Part shown: one piece after another, positions 4,225 to 29,774 of the stretch
Layout: the number at the start of each line of letters is the position of its first letter
Position numbering within the stretch: the first letter of the stretch is position 1
Assembly (NCBI GenBank): GCA_015486215.1
Contig: WFSA01000271.1
Coordinates: forward strand, 1-36,401
Source of the DNA: Anaerolineae bacterium
Lineage (GTDB): Bacteria; Chloroflexota; Anaerolineae; Promineifilales; Promineifilaceae
Reading direction: 5' to 3'
DNA: 36,401 nt
Notes under the pieces: generated by a model
What the model was told of the DNA's origin: nothing
The model's input: the letters and a program-made list of their open reading frames with translations, nothing else
Database searches by the model: none
Position numbers and translations under genes: made by a program

Positions 4225-4379
4225 ATCATTTCGCATAAAATGAACCATGCCTAAAATTGAGAAAATACAACAAAGATAAAAAAACAGGTGTAACCAATCC
4301 ATGTCCCCGTCCCCCCCCGCTCGCCCGCCGTTCATGCGCGGGTTATAATGTTGCCATCATACCGAAACAGGAGAGTACA

Positions 4380-5621
4380 ATGGCAGCGACAAAATCAGAG
4401 ATGGAAGAACTTCGGCGACGATTGGATTGGTTCGACGAAGAGCGACGCAGAACCAATCGAAAACTCACGGAACTGGAACAAAAATTAACCTTGCAACAGC
4501 AAGAGGTCACTAAACGAGAACGACGTATTCGTGACTTGGAACAACAGCTATCGACTACGACATCACAACTCAGCCGTTTTTCTCAAATAGATACCCAAAT
4601 CGCCCAATTCAAGGACGAAACAATCCGCATGATGGAGCAATATGATCAACGGCGCATCACTTCTGAGAAAGAGGTTGACCGTATGCGCCGTGTGGAGCAG
4701 GAAGGGGCAGCCCGCGAATTGGCTGACATCCGTAAAGAACTGCCCGCAATCGGCCGTTTGCAACAAAACATGGAGTTACGCATCTCCGAAGAATCGCGGC
4801 TGGCTAGTTTGCTCGGCAATCAACAAAATAGAATCGCCTCTCTCGTCAACCAAATCGACAATTGGGAGCGTGCCATCACCTTTGTGGAAGAGAAGGAAAA
4901 TCGGAACACCCAATATATCAACGAAATACAGTCAGCCCAACTGGATGTGGATAAAAAGTGGAATCCGATCAATGCACGGCTAGATAATCTGTCGGGTAGT
5001 ATTTTGCGATTGGAAACGGCCAATCGGGAAATCTACGAGGCACAAGAGGTAATACGCACAAGCACGCAGCGATGGATGGAGCAGATTCAAATTGGGGAGT
5101 ACGGCCGTAATCAAAAGGTAGAAACGTGGCGGCAAGTCATTGAAGAGCAACAAGACATCATCGCTAATTTTAAGCGTGAATGGATCAAATTTAACGACCA
5201 ATATAAAGAGTCGAAGATGGCAGTGCAGACGATGCTCGGTTGGCAAGAGCAGGTCGAACAGAAGCAAAAAGAGTCATCCGAAACATTGCGCGTGGAGTCA
5301 AGCCGCACACAGAAACAGTGGGATTCATTCCAAACGGAGATTAAAAAACAGTTACGTACCTTCACAACTGACGTTGAGCAACGATGGGTGCATTATGACC
5401 GCAACACCAAGCAGACGCGAGAACGGTTTGAACTGCTTGATGGACAATTGAAAAAACTATCCGACGAGAAAGATACGCTGGATCGTATCCAAAACGCACA
5501 AGCGGACGCGATAAAACGATGGGGGCGCATTTGGATGGAAGAGGTTGAAAAGGCGATAGCCAACGATCCAAACCGCCGCCGCCAGCCCGCGCTCGTTTCG
5601 GTGCAGGACGATACGCTATAG
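4380..5621 (+). CDS. Long coiled-coil protein of unknown function
   Basis: A 413-residue protein that is almost entirely charged, Glu/Gln/Arg/Lys-rich heptad sequence with no glycine-rich or catalytic motif, no signal peptide and no membrane segment. Start chosen at 4380 because AGGAGAG sits just upstream; the frame is open further up but that part is Pro/Arg-rich and non-protein-like. Helical sections such as ELEQKLTLQQQEVTKRERR (about 25-44) and the final third suggest an elongated dimer or filament-like scaffold. The C-terminal tail (NRRRQPALVSV) is basic. It shares a general coiled-coil style, but no clear sequence identity, with the gene at 34888. It lies 78 bp upstream of selB, separated by an inverted repeat. 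No family could be assigned. Confidence 0.8.
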   Translation: MAATKSEMEELRRRLDWFDEERRRTNRKLTELEQKLTLQQQEVTKRERRIRDLEQQLSTTTSQLSRFSQIDTQIAQFKDETIRMMEQYDQRRITSEKEVDRMRRVEQEGAARELADIRKELPAIGRLQQNMELRISEESRLASLLGNQQNRIASLVNQIDNWERAITFVEEKENRNTQYINEIQSAQLDVDKKWNPINARLDNLSGSILRLETANREIYEAQEVIRTSTQRWMEQIQIGEYGRNQKVETWRQVIEEQQDIIANFKREWIKFNDQYKESKMAVQTMLGWQEQVEQKQKESSETLRVESSRTQKQWDSFQTEIKKQLRTFTTDVEQRWVHYDRNTKQTRERFELLDGQLKKLSDEKDTLDRIQNAQADAIKRWGRIWMEEVEKAIANDPNRRRQPALVSVQDDTL

Positions 5622-5685
5622 CAAGCGGCAAGTTTGCATGTGGGCAAGTTTGCAACTATACGGAACTTGCAAACTTGCCGCTTGC
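5621..5685 (+). repeat. Inverted repeat of GCAAGTTTGC type between coiled-coil gene and selB
   Basis: Perfect 18-bp arms: left 5621-5638 (GCAAGCGGCAAGTTTGCA), right 5668-5685, loop 29 nt. The left arm begins on the last base of the upstream stop codon. No T-run follows, so this is not a standard intrinsic terminator. Similar GCAAGTTTGC strings recur after the selB and secA stop codons. Confidence 0.75.
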
Positions 5686-5699
5686 CCTTGCATCTTATC

Positions 5700-7571
5700 A
5701 TGTATGTAATTGGAACTGCCGGGCATGTTGATCACGGCAAATCTACTTTAATTGAAGCGTTGACGGGGATCGATCCCGACCGATTGGCGGAAGAGAAAGA
5801 GCGGGAGATGACGATCGATCTGGGCTTCGCTTGGATTCAGTTAGGAGATGACGGGGAGACGGTCGGCATTGTTGATGTACCTGGCCATCGTGACTTTATC
5901 GAAAATATGTTAGCGGGCGTGGGCGGGATTGATATGGCCGTCTTCGTCGTCGCCGCTGATGAAGGGGTGATGCCGCAAACGACAGAACATCTCGCCATTT
6001 TGAACTTGCTGGAAATCAACGGCGGCGTAATCGCTCTAACAAAAATTGATATGGTGGACGATCCTGATTGGATTGAACTCGTCACCCTTGATTTGCATGA
6101 GACGCTGGAGGGGACGGTGTTGGAAAACGCGCCTATCATGCCTGTTTCGGCAAAAACGGGGGAAGGGCTGGCGGCGTTGCGGGAAATGCTATGGAAAGAG
6201 TTGCAGAATCGTCCCGAACGCGCGGACAACGGCCGTCCACAACTCCCGGTTGACCGCGTTTTCACCCTGTCGGGTTTTGGCACAGTGGTGACGGGAACGT
6301 TGACCAACGGCCGTTTACAGCTTGGTGACACGATAGAAATCCAACCATCAGGACGCAAAGGGCGCGTTCGCGGCTTGCAAACCCATAATCATAAAATCGA
6401 CATTGCCCATCCGGGCAGCCGCGTCGCCATCAATTTGACGGGCATTGGGCGCGATGAGGTCAAGCGGGGAGATGTCATCGCCGCGCCTAATGTGATCGGC
6501 AATACGATTTTGCTTGATGCCGCTTATACCCATCTCGCCAGCGCGGGCAAACCGTTGAAGCACAATACAGAAGTCAAACTGTTCATCGGCGCGGCTGAGG
6601 TGATGGCACGGGCGCGGGTGCTGGGGGATAAGCAGATCGAAGCGGGGCAAAATGGGTGGCTGCAATTGGCGTTAGCCCATCCGATAGCGACGGCACGGGG
6701 GGATAAATTCATCCTGCGACGGCCGTCACCCGGCATGACGATAGGGGGCGGACGGGTGTTAGACCCGCAGCCCGGCCGTCGGCATCGTCGTTTCAAAGGT
6801 AATGTCACCGCTCGTCTGCAAACGCTGGCCGAAGGAACACCATCGGAACTGTTGATGCAGCGATTGGCACGGTTGGAGCCTGCAAAAGCGGAGCGTCTCA
6901 TCGGTGAAGTGGAATTGGATCGAAAAACGGCCGTTGAGACCATCAAAACCTTAGAAGAAGAAGGGCAAATCGTGCGCGTGAGCAAACTATTGTTCACCCA
7001 CGCGGGCTGGCAGCGACTGATACAGAAGATGATCACCCTGACCACCGCCCATCATCGCCAAAATCGGCTGCGGCTGGGCATCCCGCGTGAAGAGTTACGC
7101 AGTAAATTGCAGGTCAAACCATCCATCTTCACCGTCTTGATAGAGCAGGCGGTCAACGATGGCACATTGCAGGAAGATCACGGATTGCTCCGCCTTCCCA
7201 ACCATTCAATCCGCTTTACAGGACGAGAGCAAACGGCCGTTGACCAATTATTACGCGACTTTGCCGACGCAGAGGCGAATTCGCCCAGTGTGAAATTGTG
7301 TAAAACGGCCGTTACCGATGATGTCTACTTCGCCCTGATTGATTTGGGCGAATTGATACAACTCAATACTGATGTTGTCTATACGAAAGATGAGTATACG
7401 CGTATCCGACAACAGATTATCAACTATTTAGAAAAGAAGAAAAAAATAAACGCAAGCGAATTACGTACCCTGCTCAATAGCAGCCGCAAATACAGCATCG
7501 CCATTCTAGAGCATCTGGATGAGATTAAAGTGACACGGCGGATTGGTGATTACAGGGAGATGGACGGGTAG
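5700..7571 (+). CDS. selB: Selenocysteine-specific elongation factor SelB
   Basis: A 623-residue GTPase that in known systems carries selenocysteinyl-tRNA to UGA codons at the ribosome. The N-terminus shows G1 GHVDHGKST (about 8-16), G3 DVPGH (about 60-64) and G4 TKID, with the SelB-type ADEGVMPQTTEHL. Domain II has TGTLTNGRLQLGD (about 200-212). The C-terminal part, from about 370, is a chain of winged-helix modules as expected for mRNA-hairpin binding. The start at 5700 gives the usual SelB beginning MYVIGTAGHVD; the frame continues upstream into the inverted repeat but that sequence is not protein-like. No Shine-Dalgarno site is visible. selA, selC and selD are not in the window. The size fits the family. 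Confidence 0.95.
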   Translation: MYVIGTAGHVDHGKSTLIEALTGIDPDRLAEEKEREMTIDLGFAWIQLGDDGETVGIVDVPGHRDFIENMLAGVGGIDMAVFVVAADEGVMPQTTEHLAILNLLEINGGVIALTKIDMVDDPDWIELVTLDLHETLEGTVLENAPIMPVSAKTGEGLAALREMLWKELQNRPERADNGRPQLPVDRVFTLSGFGTVVTGTLTNGRLQLGDTIEIQPSGRKGRVRGLQTHNHKIDIAHPGSRVAINLTGIGRDEVKRGDVIAAPNVIGNTILLDAAYTHLASAGKPLKHNTEVKLFIGAAEVMARARVLGDKQIEAGQNGWLQLALAHPIATARGDKFILRRPSPGMTIGGGRVLDPQPGRRHRRFKGNVTARLQTLAEGTPSELLMQRLARLEPAKAERLIGEVELDRKTAVETIKTLEEEGQIVRVSKLLFTHAGWQRLIQKMITLTTAHHRQNRLRLGIPREELRSKLQVKPSIFTVLIEQAVNDGTLQEDHGLLRLPNHSIRFTGREQTAVDQLLRDFADAEANSPSVKLCKTAVTDDVYFALIDLGELIQLNTDVVYTKDEYTRIRQQIINYLEKKKKINASELRTLLNSSRKYSIAILEHLDEIKVTRRIGDYREMDG

Positions 7572-16750: not shown

Positions 16751-16879
16751 TTTTAATCTGCAAAAATCTGCGTAACCTGTAGGTCAGTTTTTGTTTCCGG
16801 TAATATATGGTTGCGGGATTGCAAAGGTGCATATCCTCCTCTGCAACTCCGCAACAGTACCCCAGAACTTGGAGGAACT

Positions 16880-19786
16880 ATGAATCTGCATGGTTTTCAA
16901 CTCATAAAAGAAGAACAATTACCAGAACGCAACGCCCACGTCGCCCTCTATCGCCATAAAACAGGCGCAGAATTACTATCCGTACAAAATGATGACGAAA
17001 ATAAAGTGTTTGGCATCACTTTTCGCACACCGCCGACGAGTTCTAACGGCGTGGCGCACATTATGGAACATTCTGTACTGGGCGGATCACGCAAATATCG
17101 TGTCAAAGAGCCGTTCGTTGAATTGATCAAAGGGTCGCTGCAAACATTTGTCAACGCCTTCACCAGTTCCGATTGGACAGCGTACCCTGTCGCCAGCCAA
17201 AATGTGCAGGATTTTTATAATCTTATTGATGTTTATATGGATGCTGTCTTCTATCCGCTCATCACCCCGCATCATCTTGAGCAGGAAGGGTGGCATTATG
17301 AGTTAGAGTCGCTGGACGATCCGCTCGTCTACAAAGGGATCGTTTTCAATGAGATGAAGGGGGCATACTCCGATGCTGATGATATGATGGCACGGCACAG
17401 TCAGGCGGCTCTATTTCCTGATCACACATACGGCCTCGACTCTGGCGGTGACCCGCTCGTCATCCCTGAGTTGACGTATGAGCAGTTCAAGGATTTTCAC
17501 GATAGATATTACCATCCAGCAAACGGCCGTCTGTTTTTCTACGGTGACGATGACCCAGAAGAGCGGTTACGGCTGACGGCCGCATGGCTGGACGCATTCG
17601 AACCGATAGAGGTTGATTCCACCGTCCCCCTCCACGCCCCCTTTGCGGCCCCCCGTTATGTCGAATATTCTTACAATGTGGACGAAGGGGATTTGGACAA
17701 AAAAGGGATGGCGATACTCAATTGGGCATTTACGGAAAAGAGCGATCCTGTCGAGAAAATGGCGTGGGGGATTTTATCCTACGCCCTGATGGGAACGCCC
17801 GCCTCTCCCTTGCGAAAAGCGTTGATTGATTCTGGACTGGGCGAAGATGTGATCGGCGGCGGGTTGTCCACTTCATTACGGCAGCCCGTTTTTGAGGCGG
17901 GGTTAAAAGGGATTGACGGCGCAAAAGCAAAAGAGGTGGAGAGCCTCATTTTAGGCACCCTTCGTACATTGGCGGCTGATGGATTGGATCCAAAAATGAT
18001 CGCCGCCGCCGTCAACACAGTCGAATTTGCATTGCGTGAAAATAACACGGGCAGTTTTCCACGCGGGTTGAGCTTGATGTTGACCGCGATGCGAACGTGG
18101 CTGCATGATGGCGATCCATTCGCCGCATTGGCGTTTGAAGAGCGATTAACGGCCGTTAAATCCATCCTCACCGCCACCCCCGCCTACTTCCAAACCCTCA
18201 TCCAGCATGATTTGCTTGACAATACCCACCGCGCCCTCGTCACCATGCTGCCCGATCCTGGCAAGGGAGAGCGGCTGAACGCGGAAGAAAAAGCAAAATT
18301 AGCGGCGATAAAAGCGGAGATGAACGCAGAAGAATTGCAAGCGATTATCGATAATACCCGCGCGCTCATCGCCCGTCAATCCGCACCCGACGCGCCCGAA
18401 GACCTTGCCGCCATTCCCAGCTTGTCATTGGATGACTTAGAAAAAGAGGGCAGAACGCTCCCCATCGCCATCACCGAATCGAATGGCGTAGAGCTCATCC
18501 ATCACGATATTTTCAGTAATGGATTGCTCTATTTGGCTATCGGTTTTGACCTGCACACCGTTCCGCAACCGTTGCTTCCCTATCTCGGCCTATTCGGTCA
18601 ATTATTGGTAGAAATGGGGACGGAAAATGAAGATTTTGTCCAGTTATCTCAACGGATCGGCAGTGAGACGGGCGGCATATATGGATCGGTGATGACGGCG
18701 GCTAAAGTGGACAGTGCGGAAAGTGCAGCGTACTTTATGCTGCGCGGCAAATCAACCGCATCACAAGCGTCAGCCCTATTGGCTATTATGCGAGATGTGC
18801 TGCTAACGGCCGTTTTCGACAATCGCGACCGCTTCCGTCAAATCGTTTTGGAAGCAAAAGCGGGACACGAAGCGGGCATTGTGGGAGCGGGGCATCAGGT
18901 GATTAACGGCCGTCTCTCGGCAAAATTCAGCGAAGCGGGATGGGTATCCCAGCAAATTAACGGCGTGGAGCAACTCTTCTTCCTGCGCCGCTTGGCCGAC
19001 GCGATTGAGGAGGATTGGGACGGGGTGATGGCTGATTTAACGGCCGTTCGCCACCATCTCATCAACCGCAGCAGCATGCTCATCGACATCACCATTGATG
19101 CCGATAATTACGCCGCCATCCGCCCAGAATTAGTCACATTTGTCAAACAAATCCCAATAACAGACAACGACGCAACAATAGCATGGAAACCTGATTTCAA
19201 TAGCGCAAATGAAGGGTTGACCATCCCCGCCCAAGTCAATTACGTCGGCAAAGCGGCCGATTTGTATAAACATGGATACAAATTACACGGCTCATCAGCC
19301 GTTATCGGCAAATATATGGGATTGACATGGTTATGGGATAAAGTGCGTGTACAAGGAGGAGCGTATGGCGGATTCTCCACCTTCAATAATCGCTCTGGCA
19401 TGTTCGCCTTCCTCTCTTACCGCGATCCAAATTTGATGGAGACGTTGGATGTGTATGATGAAACCGTCACTTTCCTTCGCACGCTCGACATCAGCCAAGA
19501 AGAGTTAGAAAAAACAATCATCGGCAGTATCGGCAGCATTGACAGCTATCAACTTCCCCCCGCCAAAGGGTATACCGCCCTCATGCGCTACCTCATCGGC
19601 ATCAGCGACGCATCACGCCAGCAATACCGCGAGGAGTTGATGGGGACAAGTACCGCCGACTTCAAAGCGTTCGCCGATGTGTTGGAAACGGTCAAAGACA
19701 ATGGTATTGTGGTGGTGATGGGGTCGGGAACGGCCGTCAACACCGCCAACAAAGACAATTGGTTGACCATTTCTAAGGTAATGTAA
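16880..19786 (+). CDS. PreP/Cym1-type M16C zinc metalloprotease
   Basis: 968 residues, normal for the presequence-protease group of insulinase-like enzymes, which cut short unfolded peptides inside a closed clamshell chamber. The inverted zinc motif HIMEH places His60 and His64 as ligands and Glu63 as the base. The distal acidic ligand fits FNEMKGAYSDAD (about 156-167). KEPFVELIKGSLQTFVNAFT is the characteristic following helix. The weaker second half, from about 550, has the usual inactive M16 fold and a typical GGAYGGFSTF segment. The start is set by GGAGGA 6 nt upstream of ATG 16880. In bacteria it is probably a cytoplasmic peptide-recycling protease. The gene stands alone between repeat elements. 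Confidence 0.95.
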   Translation: MNLHGFQLIKEEQLPERNAHVALYRHKTGAELLSVQNDDENKVFGITFRTPPTSSNGVAHIMEHSVLGGSRKYRVKEPFVELIKGSLQTFVNAFTSSDWTAYPVASQNVQDFYNLIDVYMDAVFYPLITPHHLEQEGWHYELESLDDPLVYKGIVFNEMKGAYSDADDMMARHSQAALFPDHTYGLDSGGDPLVIPELTYEQFKDFHDRYYHPANGRLFFYGDDDPEERLRLTAAWLDAFEPIEVDSTVPLHAPFAAPRYVEYSYNVDEGDLDKKGMAILNWAFTEKSDPVEKMAWGILSYALMGTPASPLRKALIDSGLGEDVIGGGLSTSLRQPVFEAGLKGIDGAKAKEVESLILGTLRTLAADGLDPKMIAAAVNTVEFALRENNTGSFPRGLSLMLTAMRTWLHDGDPFAALAFEERLTAVKSILTATPAYFQTLIQHDLLDNTHRALVTMLPDPGKGERLNAEEKAKLAAIKAEMNAEELQAIIDNTRALIARQSAPDAPEDLAAIPSLSLDDLEKEGRTLPIAITESNGVELIHHDIFSNGLLYLAIGFDLHTVPQPLLPYLGLFGQLLVEMGTENEDFVQLSQRIGSETGGIYGSVMTAAKVDSAESAAYFMLRGKSTASQASALLAIMRDVLLTAVFDNRDRFRQIVLEAKAGHEAGIVGAGHQVINGRLSAKFSEAGWVSQQINGVEQLFFLRRLADAIEEDWDGVMADLTAVRHHLINRSSMLIDITIDADNYAAIRPELVTFVKQIPITDNDATIAWKPDFNSANEGLTIPAQVNYVGKAADLYKHGYKLHGSSAVIGKYMGLTWLWDKVRVQGGAYGGFSTFNNRSGMFAFLSYRDPNLMETLDVYDETVTFLRTLDISQEELEKTIIGSIGSIDSYQLPPAKGYTALMRYLIGISDASRQQYREELMGTSTADFKAFADVLETVKDNGIVVVMGSGTAVNTANKDNWLTISKVM

Positions 19787-20182: not shown

Positions 20183-20431
20183 ATGCAGACGAAAATTCAG
20201 AAATGGGGCAACAGTCAAGGTGTACGTTTCCCCAAATCACTTTTAAGAGAAGCCGACATACATATTGGTGATGATGTATCGATCACCATTCATGCAGGAA
20301 AAATTATTGTCGAACCGATCAATATCGTGCGTGGGCGTTATGATATTAAAGATTTAGTCGCCCAAATGCCCGACGATTACCAAGCAGAAGAAGTCGAATG
20401 GGGCTTGCCCGAAGGGACAGAGGTTTGGTAA
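20183..20431 (+). CDS. mazE: MazE-type antitoxin
   Basis: 82 residues. The first half is an AbrB/SpoVT swapped-hairpin DNA-binding fold (IQKWGNSQGVRFPKSLL, about 5-21, then GDDVSITIHAGKIIVEP). The acidic tail (residues about 60-82, rich in Glu/Asp) fits the toxin-wrapping segment that neutralises MazF. ATG 20183 follows GGGAG at 20170. Its TAA stop overlaps the toxin ATG by one base, the standard antitoxin-first coupling. Typical genome defence/stress module, or an addiction module near repeats. Confidence 0.92.
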   Translation: MQTKIQKWGNSQGVRFPKSLLREADIHIGDDVSITIHAGKIIVEPINIVRGRYDIKDLVAQMPDDYQAEEVEWGLPEGTEVW

Positions 20432-20784
20432 TGTCTCGTTATATTCCCGAACGGGGGGATTTTGTCATACTAACATTTGACCCTCAATCTGGGCATGAGC
20501 AAAAAGACCGCCGCCCCGCGCTTGTCATTTCCAACTACTTATTCAACAAACACACACACTTAGCTATTGTTTGTCCTATTACAAACACGCAGCGCAATAA
20601 TCCTTTCCATGTTCCTGTACCTGCAAAATCATCATTAATTGGCTATATTATGGTTGAACAGGTTAAATCCATTGATTTTTCTAGTAGAAAAGTCAAGTTC
20701 GTTGAAAAAATACCCCATATCACCTTATTAGATGTGCTTGCTATTTTAGATGCAGCTATTTATCAAGATGTCAATAATTCATAA
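20431..20784 (+). CDS. mazF: MazF-type mRNA interferase toxin
   Basis: 117 residues, normal size for the PemK/MazF family of ribosome-independent endoribonucleases. Conserved features are RGDFVILTFDPQSGHEQ (about 8-24), RRPALVIS with the catalytic-site Arg near 28, the Thr in CPITNTQRNNPF (about 50-56), and VEQVKSIDF (about 74-82). All key positions appear intact, so the toxin is probably active. It is expressed from the promoter before mazE. It is followed after 12 bp by the TrpC-like gene, so that gene could be read through from the mazEF promoter. Confidence 0.93.
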   Translation: MSRYIPERGDFVILTFDPQSGHEQKDRRPALVISNYLFNKHTHLAIVCPITNTQRNNPFHVPVPAKSSLIGYIMVEQVKSIDFSSRKVKFVEKIPHITLLDVLAILDAAIYQDVNNS

Positions 20785-20796
20785 TTCACCCACACC

Positions 20797-21603
20797 ATGA
20801 GCGTATCAAACCAAGCAAAGCGACAAGGTAAAATCCTAGATGAGATCATGGCATTTCATCGCCAACAATTGCCCAAAACCATGCGCGACGTGCCGCTGGC
20901 CGACTTACGGGCGTTCGCCTCCGTCGCCCCATCGCCGCGCCCCGTTCTGCCCGCTTTGCAAGGAGACGGGGTTGCCTTACTGTTGGAAGGCAAAAAAGCA
21001 TCTCCAATGACAGGGTTGATGAATCTGCATTATGATGCCGTCACATTGGCGAAGGATGCGGTTGATGCGGGAGCAACGGCCGTTTCCATCTGGACAGACG
21101 CACGCCATTATCAAGGCTCGCTCGACGATTTACGAAATGTCAAAGAGACGATCAGCATCCCCGTCATTCGTCAAGATTTTATCTTTCATCCGTACCAACT
21201 GTACGAATCATTGGTAGCGGGGGCGGATGGGATTGTGTTGATCACGGCCGTTCTCGACGACAGCACCCTGCAAAAATTAACCGCCCGCTGCCGCCGACTC
21301 GGCATGGAACCGATCATCGAAGTCCACACCCCTGACGATATAGAACGCGCCCTCGCCGTCAACCCCTCCATCATCCTGATCAACAGATACAATTGGCAGA
21401 CCTTTGCCCTAGATAAGCGGGCTGCCCGTTTAGGCAGCTTTGCCCCCGACGGCATCGCCACGCTCGTGCGCGGCGGAATCAGAACTGCCAATGATATGTA
21501 CGCTCTAGCCGACAATAAAATAGAGGGTGCCCTCGTTGGCCGTGCCCTCTGTAAAAACAAAAACCCGTATCGCACCGCCAGCATGCTCGTCCGTGCAAGT
21601 TGA
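20797..21603 (+). CDS. TrpC-like TIM-barrel protein with altered catalytic residues
   Basis: 268 residues, clearly homologous to indole-3-glycerol phosphate synthase, the ring-closing enzyme of tryptophan synthesis. Phosphate- and substrate-binding parts are present: E64-G-K66-K-A-S-P, IIEVH with Glu175, N196 in INRYNW and GALVGRAL near the end. However, the general-acid lysine of the family (KD in sequences such as LRKDFI; Lys110 in Sulfolobus) is Gln126 in IRQDFIFHPYQ. The ESG motif (Glu210-Ser211-Gly) is R225-G226-G227. No other trp gene is nearby. It may be an inactive or repurposed paralogue rather than a true TrpC; a divergent but active enzyme is not excluded. It lies between mazF and a membrane glycosyltransferase, 13 bp upstream of the latter. 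Confidence 0.8.
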   Translation: MSVSNQAKRQGKILDEIMAFHRQQLPKTMRDVPLADLRAFASVAPSPRPVLPALQGDGVALLLEGKKASPMTGLMNLHYDAVTLAKDAVDAGATAVSIWTDARHYQGSLDDLRNVKETISIPVIRQDFIFHPYQLYESLVAGADGIVLITAVLDDSTLQKLTARCRRLGMEPIIEVHTPDDIERALAVNPSIILINRYNWQTFALDKRAARLGSFAPDGIATLVRGGIRTANDMYALADNKIEGALVGRALCKNKNPYRTASMLVRAS

Positions 21604-21616
21604 AAAATTGACAATT

Positions 21617-23818
21617 ATGAAATCAATTTACTACTCTAAAAAATCACCCGCCGCTCCCATCATGGCGGCCATTTTTGGCCTGCTCTTCACCCTCTACCTC
21701 TTCACCTTCAACGGTCAATTCACCTCCATAGACGAATTTGCCCTATACGCCCGCGCCGAAAGCATCGTGCAGCAACACTCCTTCGACACCCCGCAGCTCA
21801 GCTTTGCCGCCTACCATAATCATGTCGGCGACAGCGAGCCAGGATACGCCATCGTCGCCGCGCCGCTCTATTTGATAGCACGCAATAGCGGGCGGCTGAA
21901 CAATATCCACGTTCTCATGCTGCTCAACCCGTTGTTGACCGCGATGACCGCCGCCCTCTTATACGCCATCGCCGCCCAGTTGGGATACTCGCGCATGGCG
22001 GGCATGATCGCCGCGCTCACCTTTGGGCTGGCGACATTGGCGTGGCCGTACGCCCGCACATTTTACCGCGAACCGCTGGTCGCTTTTGGCTGGACGGCCG
22101 CCCTCTACAGCTTAATTCGATGGCGGTACGCAGATGACAAACCGTTCGCCGCTCTCGCCCTCGCCCTGATTGGGGGGATGGTTTTTGTGAAGGCAACGGC
22201 CGTTGTCGGCATCTTCATCCTATTGGCAGGGTTAGCCCGCACCCGTGACCGCAAACAGTTAAAACGCGCCGCTCTCGCCCTCACGCTGCTCTTTCTCATC
22301 GCCGCCATCCTTTTTCAAATCGTATATCAATTACGCTATGGGGAGCTGTGGGGCACAGACAGCCTTACCGACTGGACGATGGCAGCAAGCGTGCGCCGTA
22401 TTTACGGGCAGCTTTTTAGTCCGGGCAAAGGGCTGCTCTTTTACATGCCCGTCATCACCCTCACCCTTCCTGGCGCATGGCTGCTATCAAGAGATCATCG
22501 AGCCGTCACATTAGCGGCAACGATGCCCTTATTGACAATGACTGCCGCTTACAGCACATACGGCGCATGGTATGGCGGTCAATCATGGGGCGCACGCTTC
22601 CTAGTTCCCGCCCTGCCGCTTCTGATGCTCACCATCGCCCCCCTGTGGGATGAGGCCAAACGATGGCGGCCGCTCAGCGCGGCGGTGATTGGGGCAGGCG
22701 TGATTTGGCAGCTCCCCGTCATCGTCACCAACTGGTGGGCAGCCTACAGTCCTTTATATGAATCGGGCAAAATGGCCGAAGATGTGGCGGGCATGACGGC
22801 CGTTTCCCTCTCCCCGCCCCTCATCCAATGGAAAAGCTGGGCAATCTCTAATTTTGATCTGCTCTGGCTCCATCCCGATCTTGATGGAATACTCCACTTT
22901 TCTCCCTTCGGTTTGGGGCTGTTTGCCACCGTCATCATCGCAGGGGGGATGGGATGGTTGATTTGGCGGCAACGATTCGCGGCGGGATGGTTCGCCTTGC
23001 CGCCATTGGCTGCCGCAAGTATCTTGCTCCTTTTTGGCGGAACGGCCGTCACGGGGTATCAAGGCATGACCGTTCTTGAAGGAGCACAAGCGGCCGCATG
23101 GCTCAATCAACATCCCGAACCGTACACCGTCGTCACCCTCTCCAACGAATTCCACATCTATTTTTATCAAGCCAATTTCACCGGCCATTTCATCCATCAT
23201 TGGCTCTCGCCCGATCAAACAGACGGCTTTGACCCGATTTTAGATGCTGCCAAAGGGAAATGGGTTTCCCTGATGATAGATCGCGTGCATAAGCGGCCGG
23301 AAGCGTCGGGGCAAGAGTTGGAATGGTGGCTGAACGCCCATCTTTTCCGCGCTGACAGCGCGTGGGTCGGCGGCTACGAGTTGACTCGTTACGCCAACCT
23401 GCCCTTGAACGGGTGGCTTTGGCAGCCAGCCGATCTGCGTTTTGGCGATATGTTTGATGTGGGATTGACGGCCGTTTACCAACAGGATTTCACCCGTATC
23501 GACGACAATGTCGTCGGCGTACAGATAGAAATTTGCCGCCATGAAAACTTACCCGCCTATCATAATTTATTCGTCCATTTAGTCGGCAGCGAGACGGTCA
23601 TACACGGCTTCGACGGCCCCATCCGTTATGGCGGCATGGTGGCTGAGACGTGGCAAGACGGGGAATGTCTCATCGAACGCCGCGCCATCCCCATCCCCGC
23701 CGATGCCCCGCCTGGACAGTACGATCTGATCATGGGATTTGATGATGAAAACGGCCGTGTATTAGCAAACGGCCGTGACGAGTACGCCGTATTGACACAA
23801 ATTGAGATTAAGGAGTGA
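21617..23818 (+). CDS. GT-C family membrane glycosyltransferase (GT39/ArnT-like)
   Basis: 733 residues. About ten hydrophobic helices from residue 15 to about 485 (for example IMAAIFGLLFTLYLFTF and LAGLARTR preceded by GIFILL), then a soluble C-terminal region of about 250 residues. The early acidic motif SIDEFALYARAE follows the first helix, where GT-C enzymes such as PMT and ArnT keep catalytic Asp/Glu. AWPYARTFYREP and FSPGKGLLFYMPV are typical loop segments. These enzymes move sugars from polyprenyl-phosphate carriers to lipid or protein on the outer face of the membrane. The acceptor is unknown. Start at ATG 21617, with no strong ribosome site; possibly coupled to the TrpC-like gene. Confidence 0.85.
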   Translation: MKSIYYSKKSPAAPIMAAIFGLLFTLYLFTFNGQFTSIDEFALYARAESIVQQHSFDTPQLSFAAYHNHVGDSEPGYAIVAAPLYLIARNSGRLNNIHVLMLLNPLLTAMTAALLYAIAAQLGYSRMAGMIAALTFGLATLAWPYARTFYREPLVAFGWTAALYSLIRWRYADDKPFAALALALIGGMVFVKATAVVGIFILLAGLARTRDRKQLKRAALALTLLFLIAAILFQIVYQLRYGELWGTDSLTDWTMAASVRRIYGQLFSPGKGLLFYMPVITLTLPGAWLLSRDHRAVTLAATMPLLTMTAAYSTYGAWYGGQSWGARFLVPALPLLMLTIAPLWDEAKRWRPLSAAVIGAGVIWQLPVIVTNWWAAYSPLYESGKMAEDVAGMTAVSLSPPLIQWKSWAISNFDLLWLHPDLDGILHFSPFGLGLFATVIIAGGMGWLIWRQRFAAGWFALPPLAAASILLLFGGTAVTGYQGMTVLEGAQAAAWLNQHPEPYTVVTLSNEFHIYFYQANFTGHFIHHWLSPDQTDGFDPILDAAKGKWVSLMIDRVHKRPEASGQELEWWLNAHLFRADSAWVGGYELTRYANLPLNGWLWQPADLRFGDMFDVGLTAVYQQDFTRIDDNVVGVQIEICRHENLPAYHNLFVHLVGSETVIHGFDGPIRYGGMVAETWQDGECLIERRAIPIPADAPPGQYDLIMGFDDENGRVLANGRDEYAVLTQIEIKE

Positions 23819-24014: not shown

Positions 24015-24419
24015 ATGGAAGATAAAAAGCCACGCATTTTAGTAGGAAAACCAGGCCTTGACGGGCATGATCGGGGTGTGAAAATCGTCGCTCGTGCGTT
24101 GCGCGATGCGGGCATGGAAGTGATTTACACAGGCTTGCGCCAAACACCAGCAATGATCGTCGAAACGGCATTGCAAGAAGATGTAGACGGCATTGGTCTC
24201 AGTATTTTATCGGGCGCGCATTTGCCGTTGATGGAACGGATTATGGAGTTGCTGCACGCGGAAGAGATGGATGATATTCCTGTCTTTCTGGGCGGTATCA
24301 TCCCTGATGAAGATATTCCACAGCTAAAACAGATGGGGGTATCGGCTATTTTTGGGCCGGGTACAACCATGAAAGTGATTCAAGATGCGGTATGGTCACA
24401 AATCCACAATGCGGGATAA
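24015..24419 (+). CDS. Methylmalonyl-CoA mutase-type B12-binding subunit
   Basis: 134 residues forming a complete cobalamin-binding domain: [10 protein letters not shown] with His18 as the lower axial cobalt ligand, a central SGAHLPLM segment (about 66-73), and the [10 protein letters not shown] and FGPGTT phosphate-proximal loops. In split mutases this small subunit pairs with a separate catalytic chain to interconvert methylmalonyl-CoA and succinyl-CoA, or a related acyl-CoA pair. The catalytic subunit is not in the window. It overlaps the downstream MeaB gene by 11 bp, which supports the mutase assignment. The substrate could instead be isobutyryl- or ethylmalonyl-CoA. Confidence 0.93.
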
Positions 24420-25374
24420 GATAGTGGAAACATTGATCGCGGCGGTGCGCTTGGGCAAACCGCGTGCCATCGCCCGCCTGATTACCCTTGTGGAAAATAG
24501 TGAAGAGGCGGCCAAAACGGCCGTTTTCCATCTCCATCCCCACACAGGCCGCGCCCATATCATCGGCATCACTGGATCGCCCGGAGCGGGCAAAAGCACC
24601 CTCGTCAACGAGATCGCCAAAGCGGCACGCAAACAAAACGACCGCGTCGCCATCATCGCCGTTGACCCCACCAGCCCGTTCACCGGCGGCGCACTTTTGG
24701 GCGACCGTGTACGGATGCGCGAATTGGCGGGCGATAAAGGGGTGTTCATTCGCAGTATGGCCTCGCGGGGGAGTTTAGGCGGATTATCGGCGGCGGTAAC
24801 GGCCGTTCTCACCATTCTTGATGCCGCCAATTTTGACATCATTTTGCTGGAAACCGTCGGCGCGGGGCAGGCAGAAGTGGAAATCGCCGCCGTCGCCCAC
24901 ACGACATTGGTCGTCGAAGCACCAGGGATGGGAGATGACATCCAATCGATCAAAGCGGGAATTTTGGAAATCGCCGATATTTTGATCGTCAATAAGGCAG
25001 ATCGCGCAGGCGCGGCACGCACGACGGAACAGTTACGGACGATGCTCCGCTTTGGCGAACAAAAAGCGTGGCCTGTCCCTGTGTTAGAAACCATCGCCGT
25101 CGCCCCCACAGCAAAAACGGGCGTGGCGCAGGTGATGGAGAAAATCACCGCCCATCACCATCATTTGCAAACGACGGATGAGGGCGCAGAGCGTGCAAAA
25201 ACGCGCATCCGTTGGCAGGTGGAGCAGCTTTTGCACCGCCGCCTGTTAAAAATGAGCCAGCGAGCAGAGATAGAAGCGTTATGGGACGGGTTGATAACGG
25301 CCGTTTTCCATCACCAAACAGACCCGTACACCGCCGCTAATCAGGTATTTACGAAAATCATACACGAAGGCTAG
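24409..25374 (+). CDS. meaB: MeaB/ArgK-type G3E GTPase, mutase chaperone
   Basis: 321 residues. Walker A GSPGAGKS at about 56-63, switch region [16 protein letters not shown] (about 85-100), ETVGAGQ with the G3E Glu near 147, and NKAD (about 202-205) as guanine specificity. These proteins use GTP to guard cofactor loading and prevent inactivation of B12-dependent mutases; older names (ArgK) imply amino-acid transport kinase activity, which is not supported. ATG 24409 overlaps the B12 subunit gene and suggests coupling. The stop codon lies inside the terminator stem that follows. Confidence 0.95.
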
Positions 25375-25847: not shown

Positions 25848-28800
25848 ATGTTTAAGAAATTGTGGACAAAAATTATTGGCAACCCCGACAACAAAGTAAT
25901 TAACGGGATTATGCCCGTCGTCAATCAGGTAAATGAACTTGAAGCCGCCTTAAAGGCGATGTCGGATGAGGAATTGAGAGAGCAAACGGCCGTTCTCAAA
26001 CAGCGCGTGGCCGATGGCGAAACGCTGGAAGAGGTGACCCCCGAAGCGTTCGCCCTTATACGCGAAGCATCACAGCGCACCACAGGAATGCGCCATTATG
26101 ATGTGCAAATCATCGGCGGCGTACTGTTGCACAGCGGCGATGTCGTCGAAATGCGGACAGGTGAAGGCAAGACCCTCGTCGCCACTTTGCCCCTTTACCT
26201 CAACGCACTCAGCAACAAAGGAGCGCACTTGGTCACCGTCAACGAATATCTAGCACGGCGGGATGGCGGCTGGATGGGGCAGATTTTCCACTTCCTCGAT
26301 CTGTCTGTCGGCTGCATTGGGCCGCAAAAATTCTCGGCTCTATTCGACCCTGATTATGTCAACCCCAATGCGGAATTAGAAGATGATCGGCTGGTGCATT
26401 GGCGGCCAAGCACACGCAGGCAGGCGTACGAAGCAGACATCACCTACGGTATCAGCAGCGAATTTGGGTTCGACTATTTGCGCGACAATATGGCAAAAAG
26501 CAAGGATAAATTGGTGCAGCGCGACCTCAATTTTGCCGTTATTGATGAAGTTGACAATGTGTTGATTGACGAAGCACGCACACCGCTTATCATTTCTGGC
26601 CCTGCACCGCGCTCGGGCAAAGAGTATCAACGCTTCTCTCGTTACATTCGCGGTCTCAGCCGCAATACCGCCGAAGAGGATGAAGAGCCCAACGGCGATT
26701 ACGATTTAGACGAAAAAAGCCGCTCCATCGTGCTGACCGAACTCGGTATCATCAAAATTGAGGATCGCATTCCTGAAATTGATGCCGAAGCAGGTGACAG
26801 TTTATACGAGCCGCGCTTCTATGAGTTGACGTACTACCTAGATAATGCCCTTCGTGCCCAATATATGTTCAAAAAAGATGTGGAATATGTGGTGCAAGGG
26901 GATGATGTCATCATTATTGATGATTTTACAGGGCGGCCAATGCCCGGCCGCCGCTACTCTGATGGGCTGCACGAAGCGATTGAGGCAAAGGAAGGGGTCA
27001 ACATTCAGCGCGAAACGACGACTGTTGCCACCATCACCCTGCAAAATTATTTCCGTCTTTATGACCATTTGGCCGGCATGACGGGTACAGCCCTCACCGA
27101 TGCCGAAGAGTTCGATAAAATCTACGAATTGGGCGTAACACCGTTGCCCACCAATGTGCAATATATCGTCGATCAAGGGGATCGCGGCTTGATTGAGCAT
27201 AAGGATAAAGTGGAAGGGGATACGCGCATCTCTTATTTAGACCCTGACACTAAAAAACCAGTATTCTATAAGCGATTGGATCATAAAGATCAGGTGTATG
27301 GCACGGAGCCAGCAAAAGATGTAGCTATTGTGAGTGAGGTGTTACGGGTCCACAAGATGGGACGGCCGATTTTGGTCGGCACGACATCGGTTGAACATTC
27401 TGAAATTATCCATAAATTATTAGAAAAAGAAGGGTTGCCGCATACGGTACTGAACGCCAAGATAAAACAATCGGAAGCGTTAATCATCGCCCAAGCGGGG
27501 CGCAAGGATGCGGTCACGATTTCAACGAATATGGCTGGGCGTGGTACAGATATTATTCTGGGCGGTAATCCAGAGGGATTGACGGCCGTTTTCCTAGAAA
27601 ACGAACTATTCGACCGCCCGCTCCTTTCCACACTCGCCTATACGATGATCGCCGAAGGGGAGAACGCGGCCAAAGAACTCGTGCGCCGTCGTTCCAAATT
27701 GAGCGACGGATTGCTGATATGGCTCAAAGAGTTACAAAGCGAGTATGATGGTGCGCTAGCTGAAATTAGAGAAATTCAAATCATCGGCTATTTGGCAAAG
27801 ATATTGCAAGAGCCGTATAACATTGATTACAACAGTTTGATCGTCTTATTGCGCTTGGTGCATGGCAATAAATTGACACAAGCACGCGAATATCTGGAGA
27901 GAATCGGCAAGGAAAGCGCGTTGGCGGATGATATAGTGCGGCTATGGGGATTGTACGCCCGCTATCAAACTGCATCTCAGGACGGCCGTCAAAAAGCCCA
28001 ATTCCTCGCCGAACTCATCTTCGATAAACATTACAACGCCCGTGCTGCCCTCAGCCGCGCCGTGCTGGACAATAATATCGAAGAAGCCCGCATATTGACA
28101 GAGACCATCCCTGCCCTGCCCGCCAGCTTGATCGAAAGCATCCAACAAATTGAAACTGACGCGCAAACTGAACAGCAAGAGGTGTGGAATTTAGGCGGCT
28201 TGCACGTCGTCGGTTCTGAACGGCACGAATCACGCCGTATTGATAATCAGTTACGCGGCCGCGCCGCCCGTCAAGGCGATCCCGGCTCCTCCCGCTTCTT
28301 CCTCTCGCTAGAAGATGATCTCATGCTCCGTTTCGGCGGCGAGCGGCTAAAAGGGTTCATGTCACGCACCCAACTGCCCGATGATACACCGATTGAGAAC
28401 AAAATGCTCGACCGCATCATCGCAAGTTCACAAGAACGGATTGAAGGGTACAACTTTGATATGCGTAAAAACGTCGTCGAATATGATGATGTGATGACGA
28501 TGCAGCGGCAAGCGATTTATGGCGAACGCCGCGCCATTTTGATGGGCGAAGAGTTCGATTTAGATGAAAAAGTTGAGCAATCTTTCTCCGACAGTATCGA
28601 AGGATTAGTCGATAATTATCTCGACAAGTATCACACCTTTGCCAGTAATGAGATTGATGCTGCCATCCTGCAATTCAGCACCGAAGCGACGGATGCGATC
28701 AATATCGGCGGCATCATCGCCCGTTTGCGTGCATTGCTGCCCGGTATCACCGCGCTGGATCGGGATGAATTAGACGATTTATCTGGTGATAAATTAGCAA

Positions 28801-29774
28801 AGCGATTGATGCTCCTTGTTTATGAAAATGAGGAGAGCGGCCAAAATCTGAACCAGCTTTTGCAAGCGATGGGGCGTTTTGTACCGTTATTGACCCCCGT
28901 CCCCAATCTAGCCGCTTTGGCGGGCAGAAAATCCAATCAGGTACAGGCGCGTGAAGCTCTCAAACGGGCATATATGGGCAAATTGGAGCCATTTTTCGAT
29001 GATTTCTTGTCGGAACAGATGGAACAATCTGAACGGGATCGCATTTGGGAAAAAGCGGTCAATGCGCTGCATGAAACGTTTGATAATTTTAGTTTAGATG
29101 GGTTGACATCGGATGTGGCGGAACAGAGACAGGCAAAATTCCGCCTAAGTGCCACGCAAGTGTTGAACACGTTGTTGATGGACAGCTTGTCGGCGATGGA
29201 TGGGGAACATCTGGTCTTATCGTTGAAGGCGTATGTCAATAAGCAACAGGATACATGGCGCAAGAAAATTGGGGATGAAGAGTATGAAGCGTTCCAACGA
29301 TTGCTTTTATTAGAGGCGATTGATCGGGAGTGGCGCGATTATTTGACGGCGATGGATGATTTGCGGCGCGAAATTGGATTGGCTTCTATCGCCCAACAGG
29401 ATCCGAAAATTGAGTATAAACGGCGATCATTTGAAATGTTTGCCGATATGCGTCACAATATCGAAATGGATGTAGCGAACCGCTTTTTTGTGCAGTTGCA
29501 ATCCCATCAAAATTACATTCGGCAACAACGGGCAGAAGAGGTTTATAAATTACAAGCGCAACAGGCTGGATACCAACAGGTGGCGCGAAAGAAAGGGCGG
29601 GGAGCCGAACTGCGGCGCGATGCGCCAAAGGTTGGCCGCAATGATTTGTGTCCGTGCGGCAGCGGAAAGAAGTTTAAGAAATGTCATGGACGGCCGTCAA
29701 AAAGCAGTACGCCAACACCGCAAGCACCATCGGGAACGACGAAACGTAAAAAGCAGAAACGGCGTAAGCGGTAA
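25848..29774 (+). CDS. secA: SecA preprotein translocase ATPase, unusually long
   Basis: 1308 residues against about 800-950 for most SecA proteins. It drives secreted proteins through SecYEG. Walker [11 protein letters not shown] (about 104-113), [13 protein letters not shown] (Walker B, about 233-245), ATP-site TNMAGRGTD (about 560-568) and a helicase VI-like [21 protein letters not shown] are in order. The last is normally GRxGRQGD, so Gly is Ala here. The C-terminus carries the zinc motif [14 protein letters not shown] that binds SecB or lipids. Between GGNPEG (about 571) and [11 protein letters not shown] (about 780) lies an extra, mostly helical block of roughly 170 residues compared with E. 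coli; the PPXD-to-NBD2 region also has about 30 added residues. It follows a 473-bp repeat-rich spacer. Confidence 0.97.

Follow-up and report, generated by a model that had tools for sequence, protein, structure and literature searches.

What does a TrpC-like protein do once it has lost the catalytic lysine of its family? The question arises from an open reading frame (ORF) in a 36,401-nucleotide stretch of DNA from an Anaerolineae bacterium, hereafter the window. Its product, P0001, had been read in an earlier note as a possible repurposed phosphate-binding barrel. The source genome (4.13 Mb, 96% complete) is called G000 here and the suffix v marks the variant IGPS of a genome, so that P0001 is G000v. 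Residues such as K110, L184 and S211 are given in S. solfataricus IGPS numbering.

The window encodes an IGPS barrel with an altered active site

P0001 matched the Pfam IGPS family (PF00218) with 184.4 bits (E 2.8e-54), far above the cut-off of 27, and reached none of the NCBIfam TrpC cut-offs (best scores, 200.6 versus 329 bits and 195.6 versus 260). AlphaFold, run with a ten-row alignment, predicted a confident barrel (mean pLDDT 91.2, pTM 0.90), the closest PDB fold to which was Mycobacterium tuberculosis IGPS (3t44, TM 0.92). Family relatives have a single TrpC, with which P0001 shared 45-55% identity, compared with 39% for the canonical copy of its own genome; no plasmid-borne close relative was found above 60% identity. 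Its residues were assigned by reference to solved IGPS structures and 39 full-length canonical IGPS of the same taxonomic family, as follows.

20797 to 21603, + strand: IGPS-like (TrpC-derived) barrel without catalytic Lys, P0001; 268 aa, ATG start, no internal stops
20986 to 21006, + strand: EGKKASP, codons 64-70, beta-alpha loop 1; E51 (E64) and K53 (K66) kept
21007 to 21009, + strand: Met71 replacing an invariant Ser (equivalent to S58); all five family variants are changed here
21172 to 21174, + strand: Gln126 (codon CAA), where canonical IGPS have the general-acid Lys (K110 equivalent)
21319 to 21321, + strand: Glu175 kept (E159 equivalent)
21382 to 21396, + strand: NRYNW, codons 196-200; Asn196 kept (N180), Tyr198 for R182, Trp200 for L184
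21469 to 21477, + strand: RGG, codons 225-227, in place of ESG (E210, S211 and G212 equivalents)

P0001 thus has the equivalents of E51, K53, E159 and N180 and lacks those of K110, R182 and L184 and the ESG motif. K, E and S are fixed at positions K110, E210 and S211 in 39/39 canonical family sequences, so the changes in P0001 are not alignment noise. The replacements that the earlier note had listed along the protein, Lys to Gln126, Glu to Arg225 and Ser to Gly226, were correct by comparison with these 39 sequences, as was its statement that EGKKASP, Glu175 and Asn196 remain. It had overlooked the changes at Y198, W200 and M71.

P0001 is the ancestral TrpC in its original place, in a genome with a separate canonical set

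A search of the genome for a second, canonical trpC, proposed beforehand, identified one on contig C127 (269 bits), canonical at 16 of 17 active-site columns with D111 to E as the exception; P0001 is thus not the sole trpC. The other genes of the pathway were also found elsewhere in G000, trpD on C238 and trpF, trpB and trpA on C179, showing that P0001 is not the tryptophan enzyme of the cell. No other trp gene was seen within the window, in agreement with the earlier reading. The genes around the ORF are the following.

16811 to 19786, + strand: M16C/PreP-like metallopeptidase
20183 to 20431, + strand: mazE-like antitoxin (MazE match, 2e-10), in the place of trpD in relatives
20398 to 20784, + strand: mazF-like toxin (PF02452, 3e-26), ending 12 bp upstream of the IGPS-like ORF
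21617 to 23818, + strand: membrane glycosyltransferase-like protein of the LA_3751 family (NF047440, 1.5e-17); listed ORF from 21527
24015 to 25374, + strand: B12-binding mutase domain and MeaB GTPase, both of which anchor the synteny of the ancestral locus
25848 to 29774, + strand: secA, syntenic anchor and species-tree marker

The MazF and NF047440 matches confirm the placement of the ORF between a toxin gene and a membrane glycosyltransferase gene. In relatives, the locus runs M16 peptidase, trpD, trpC, then B12-domain mutase, MeaB and SecA; this order is whole in L066 and partly visible in L083, L086 and L092. The window retains it, except that trpD is missing and mazEF sits in its place, and no trpD remnant was found between the M16 gene and mazE. 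In G019, G020 and G009 the variant IGPS gene comes straight after the M16 gene, without trpD between them. This synteny, together with the higher identity of P0001 to the single TrpC of relatives, indicates that P0001 is the ancestral trpC product of the family. The canonical IGPS of G000, G019 and G020 formed a separate deep clade in the tree, as would be expected of a second trp gene set.

We considered whether the function of P0001 could be deduced from mazEF. This was rejected, since no mazEF adjoins the variant gene in G019, G020, G009 or G036; mazEF looks like a lineage-specific insertion that replaced trpD and has no part in the function.

Other genes of the window were recorded on the side. 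Positions 5634-7571 encode a SelB-like elongation factor for selenocysteine, which suggests selenoprotein synthesis in this organism, and the 454-aa ORF that precedes it (4257-5621) had no Pfam match.

Variants without K110 recur where tryptophan synthesis is lost or taken over

Five IGPS of the family lack K110, those of G000, G019, G020, G036 and G009. In the first three genomes a full second trp set with a canonical TrpC is found alongside the variant. G036 (97% complete) has the variant but no trpA, trpF, trpD or true trpB; in G009 trpA, trpD and true trpB are absent, but that genome is only 76% complete. The phosphate-loop backbone glycines are kept in all five proteins, whereas K53 is lost in three, and the sister variants G019v and G020v have lost both E51 and K53 and carry D at E159.

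In the wider class, K110-less copies were found in families f12, f16, f21, f34, f47, f49 and f52. Where such a variant is the sole IGPS of a genome (G036, G155, G174, G346, G115, G219 and G009), trpA and true trpB are absent (7/7). Outside the class, a scan of the phylum, in which matches rather than residues were counted, returned mostly one strong IGPS per genome.

Conserved neighbors that might hint at function were sought across the variant families, and none were found. The genes next to the variants in other families encode PBP1A-type, MBL-fold and HEAT-repeat proteins, an acyltransferase or a methyltransferase; as they differ from family to family, gene context gives no function. An apparent fused N-terminal domain in L130/L131 was rejected, as the sequence concerned is open frame ahead of the probable start and the real neighbor is a separate MBL-fold ORF.

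Several loci had features of their own. G241 (family f16; L135, L149, L150) carries three IGPS, one of the canonical family type, one that groups with the second trp set of G000, G019 and G020, and a K110-less copy that groups with its own family type. Family f21 (L133, L134, L140, L141, L142) has a strongly diverged paralogue with the IGPS fold (100-186 bits against a family profile) in which nearly all catalytic residues are missing and which adjoins HEAT-repeat, VWA, acyltransferase or methyltransferase genes. In family f47 (L123:4829-6600) the variant gene follows a PBP1A-type gene and overlaps by 4 bp the downstream gene for a 304-aa protein without a Pfam match; the two are paired in four genomes. 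Genes that by reading resemble photosynthesis genes (a reaction-centre L/M fusion, a cytochrome, bacteriochlorophyll synthase and reductase, and BchL-like and BchI/BchD-like genes) lie near the variant IGPS of G020 (L034:8556-18388) and G019 (L033:4872-6922), which may be phototrophic members of the family. The G009 contig (L082:3518-4561; G009:C60:2380-3423) carries a TrpB2-like gene and a tryptophanyl-tRNA synthetase gene a few kilobases upstream of the M16 and variant IGPS genes. Finally, in G066 and G129 (genus g40; L136:4500-5432, L137) the canonical IGPS gave two split Pfam matches within a single open frame, a pattern that would fit an insertion of roughly 30 residues into the barrel near profile position 109.

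The same pocket residues changed in separate lineages

We then compared the five variants at the 102 columns that are nearly invariant in canonical family sequences. G009v differed at 8 of them, G036v at 13, and the G000, G019 and G020 variants jointly at 16. Four columns were changed in all five proteins, namely, S58, K110 (Q, H, Q, H, Q), L184 (W, W, W, W, W) and S211 (G, G, G, N, G). In a permutation test, this shared change was reached in 0 of 200,000 draws, although the test is lenient: it assumes an equal chance for each column, and active-site columns may be freed together once function is lost. The identical Trp at L184 in 5/5 variants is a stronger point than the permutation count; the same replacement was also seen in families f12 and f47. 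A change from K to H at K110 takes two base changes.

In the tree, G036v fell within genus g17 (100/100), the variants of G000, G019 and G020 formed one clade (100/99), and G009v was placed weakly near g15. Forcing the five variants into one clade cost 28.7 log units with all columns included, and this was not rejected (AU p 0.119); when nine active-site columns were omitted, the cost rose to 42.1 log units and the constraint was rejected (AU p 0.014). A single origin of all five variants is thus rejected only with the active-site columns omitted, and their places in the tree indicate at least three separate origins. The SecA tree does not unite G000 with genus g9, so that the clade of the G000, G019 and G020 variants may reflect transfer, long-branch attraction or a poorly resolved species tree. 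Independent change of the same active-site residues in at least three lineages suggests recruitment for a second job.

The variants do not look like neutrally decaying genes

A simpler account would be that a redundant old trpC is drifting neutrally, its catalytic residues unconstrained and its frame not yet broken. The long branches (0.79 changes per site for G000v) and the loss of several catalytic residues are in its favor, and the G036v branch (dN 0.15, dS 0.44) had an omega of about 0.34, higher than the 0.21 of a canonical pair. In contrast, NG86 omega was 0.29 between G019v and G020v, compared with 0.26 between their canonical copies, and 0.19 between G000v and G019v; all omega values are rough because dS is high, and saturation made YN00 dN/dS mostly unusable. 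The ORF is intact in 5/5 family variants and in most other lineages, and G000v and G019v have diverged to about 51% identity without a stop. Changes were also depleted at near-invariant columns (odds ratio 0.37, p 0.009 for G036v; 0.33, p 0.014 for G009v), yet the same four active-site columns changed, with the same Trp in all variants. Omega values well below 1 and avoidance of near-invariant columns point to purifying selection and do not look like neutral decay, and we regard a decaying remnant as improbable.

We favor instead, with a probability of roughly 80%, recurrent repurposing of the ancestral TrpC, in its original chromosomal place, to a role other than tryptophan synthesis. The earlier reading of a repurposed barrel is thus supported by the canonical set in G000 and by the selected, parallel variants in relatives, some of which have no tryptophan pathway.

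A proposed route to a new ligand

In the favored account, a second trp gene set took over tryptophan synthesis and freed the ancestral TrpC, whose trpD partner was lost and which was then kept for another role. In the family, the switch from K110 to Q/H, L184 to W and S211 to G/N took place at least three times, on each occasion in a setting in which another gene set had assumed tryptophan synthesis or the pathway had disappeared. L184 presumably lines the hydrophobic ring pocket, as we assume from S. solfataricus IGPS structures, and in P0001 Trp200 probably fills the pocket that once held the anthranilate or indole ring. The phosphate-loop Gly backbone, Glu175 and Asn196 remain; with the pocket probably filled and these elements kept, we infer a different ligand. 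P0001 may therefore bind, and perhaps transform, a different, probably phosphorylated, non-indole metabolite.

Lys53, Lys110, Glu159 and Asn180 are essential in IGPS (PMC7681013), and even the Lys119Arg replacement in M. tuberculosis IGPS lowers kcat more than 2700-fold (PMC10591298). From such mutants, P0001, with its general acid K110 gone, would no longer form indole-glycerol phosphate efficiently. It could be argued that the residues it keeps at E51, K53, E159 and N180 still support a weak or specialised IGPS, with Q/H126 and a water molecule, or K66, as the proton donor. The cost of the lysine replacement and the position of the Trp in the expected ring pocket both speak against this, and G036 keeps its variant without trpD, trpF, trpA or true trpB, so that no CdRP would be made there. 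Residual IGPS activity as the reason for retention is in our view very improbable.

The protein might also have no catalytic activity and act as a partner or regulator, binding an enzyme (a Trp enzyme or a product of the neighboring genes) or sensing a phosphorylated metabolite. Such a role would itself be a form of repurposing and would not compete with it. It would fit a protein that has lost the general acid yet retained the fold, and also the persistence of variant genes in other families although most catalytic residues are gone. However, a Trp-enzyme partner is absent in G036, neighbors are not conserved between families, and the specific, recurring changes of the pocket residues suggest a selected ligand pocket. 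We consider a purely non-catalytic role possible but rather unlikely.

A broader form of the repurposing proposal is that the TrpC of this family has a latent second biochemical function, released repeatedly as lineages lose or outsource tryptophan synthesis. Each release would involve the same rebuilding of the pocket (K110 to Q/H, L184 to W, S211 to G) and recreate a protein not described so far, either an enzyme or a binder of some metabolite. This would have happened in three or more lineages of the family and probably in further lineages from other Anaerolineae families. We offer this tentatively, at somewhat less than even odds.

Relation to known TrpC variants

P0001 resembles canonical TrpC (EC 4.1.1.48, PF00218) in fold, ancestral genome position, sequence identity (45-55%) and the equivalents of E51, K53, E159 and N180. 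It differs in K110 to Q, R182 to Y, L184 to W, E210 to R and S211 to G, and in not being the only IGPS of the cell. PfAMR1 and Vitrella plastid IGPS-like proteins are kept in tryptophan auxotrophs with unconserved catalytic residues and have been read as having a new function; they are reported to have failed to complement E. coli trpC, and the authors could not verify expression (PMC6380595). The two marks of repurposing applied in that work, altered catalytic or substrate-binding residues and retention independent of tryptophan synthesis, were both found in P0001, which shares with those proteins the IGPS barrel as well. The plastid proteins are eukaryotic and carry large extensions, and their likeness to the bacterial variants is one of description, with no sign of common descent.

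In Leucomyxa plasmidifera, which has no tryptophan synthesis, the essential TrpC lysine of a TrpF-TrpC fusion pseudoenzyme is replaced by Ala (PMC11528492). Loss of that lysine is common to this protein and the bacterial variants, but the former is a single eukaryotic case, fused to a TrpF that has lost its key Cys. Streptomyces trpC2, found in antibiotic biosynthetic clusters with trpD2 and trpE (PMC5270213), is like P0001 a second TrpC outside housekeeping tryptophan synthesis, although it is not described as having lost the catalytic lysine. No bacterial IGPS pseudoenzyme, from free-living bacteria or others, was found in the freely accessible literature searched. A repurposed TrpC is therefore already known in kind from the plastid and Leucomyxa precedents; here it is bacterial, recurrent and convergent.

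The switch recurs within one bacterial class, where it involves parallel pocket changes and is clearly linked to a tryptophan pathway that has been lost or taken over. The question thereby becomes testable with small bacterial proteins and natural before-and-after pairs, such as G036v and G039. As the variant ORFs score as TrpC, annotators would wrongly credit tryptophan auxotrophs with an IGPS. More generally, these variants bear on how enzyme barrels change jobs.
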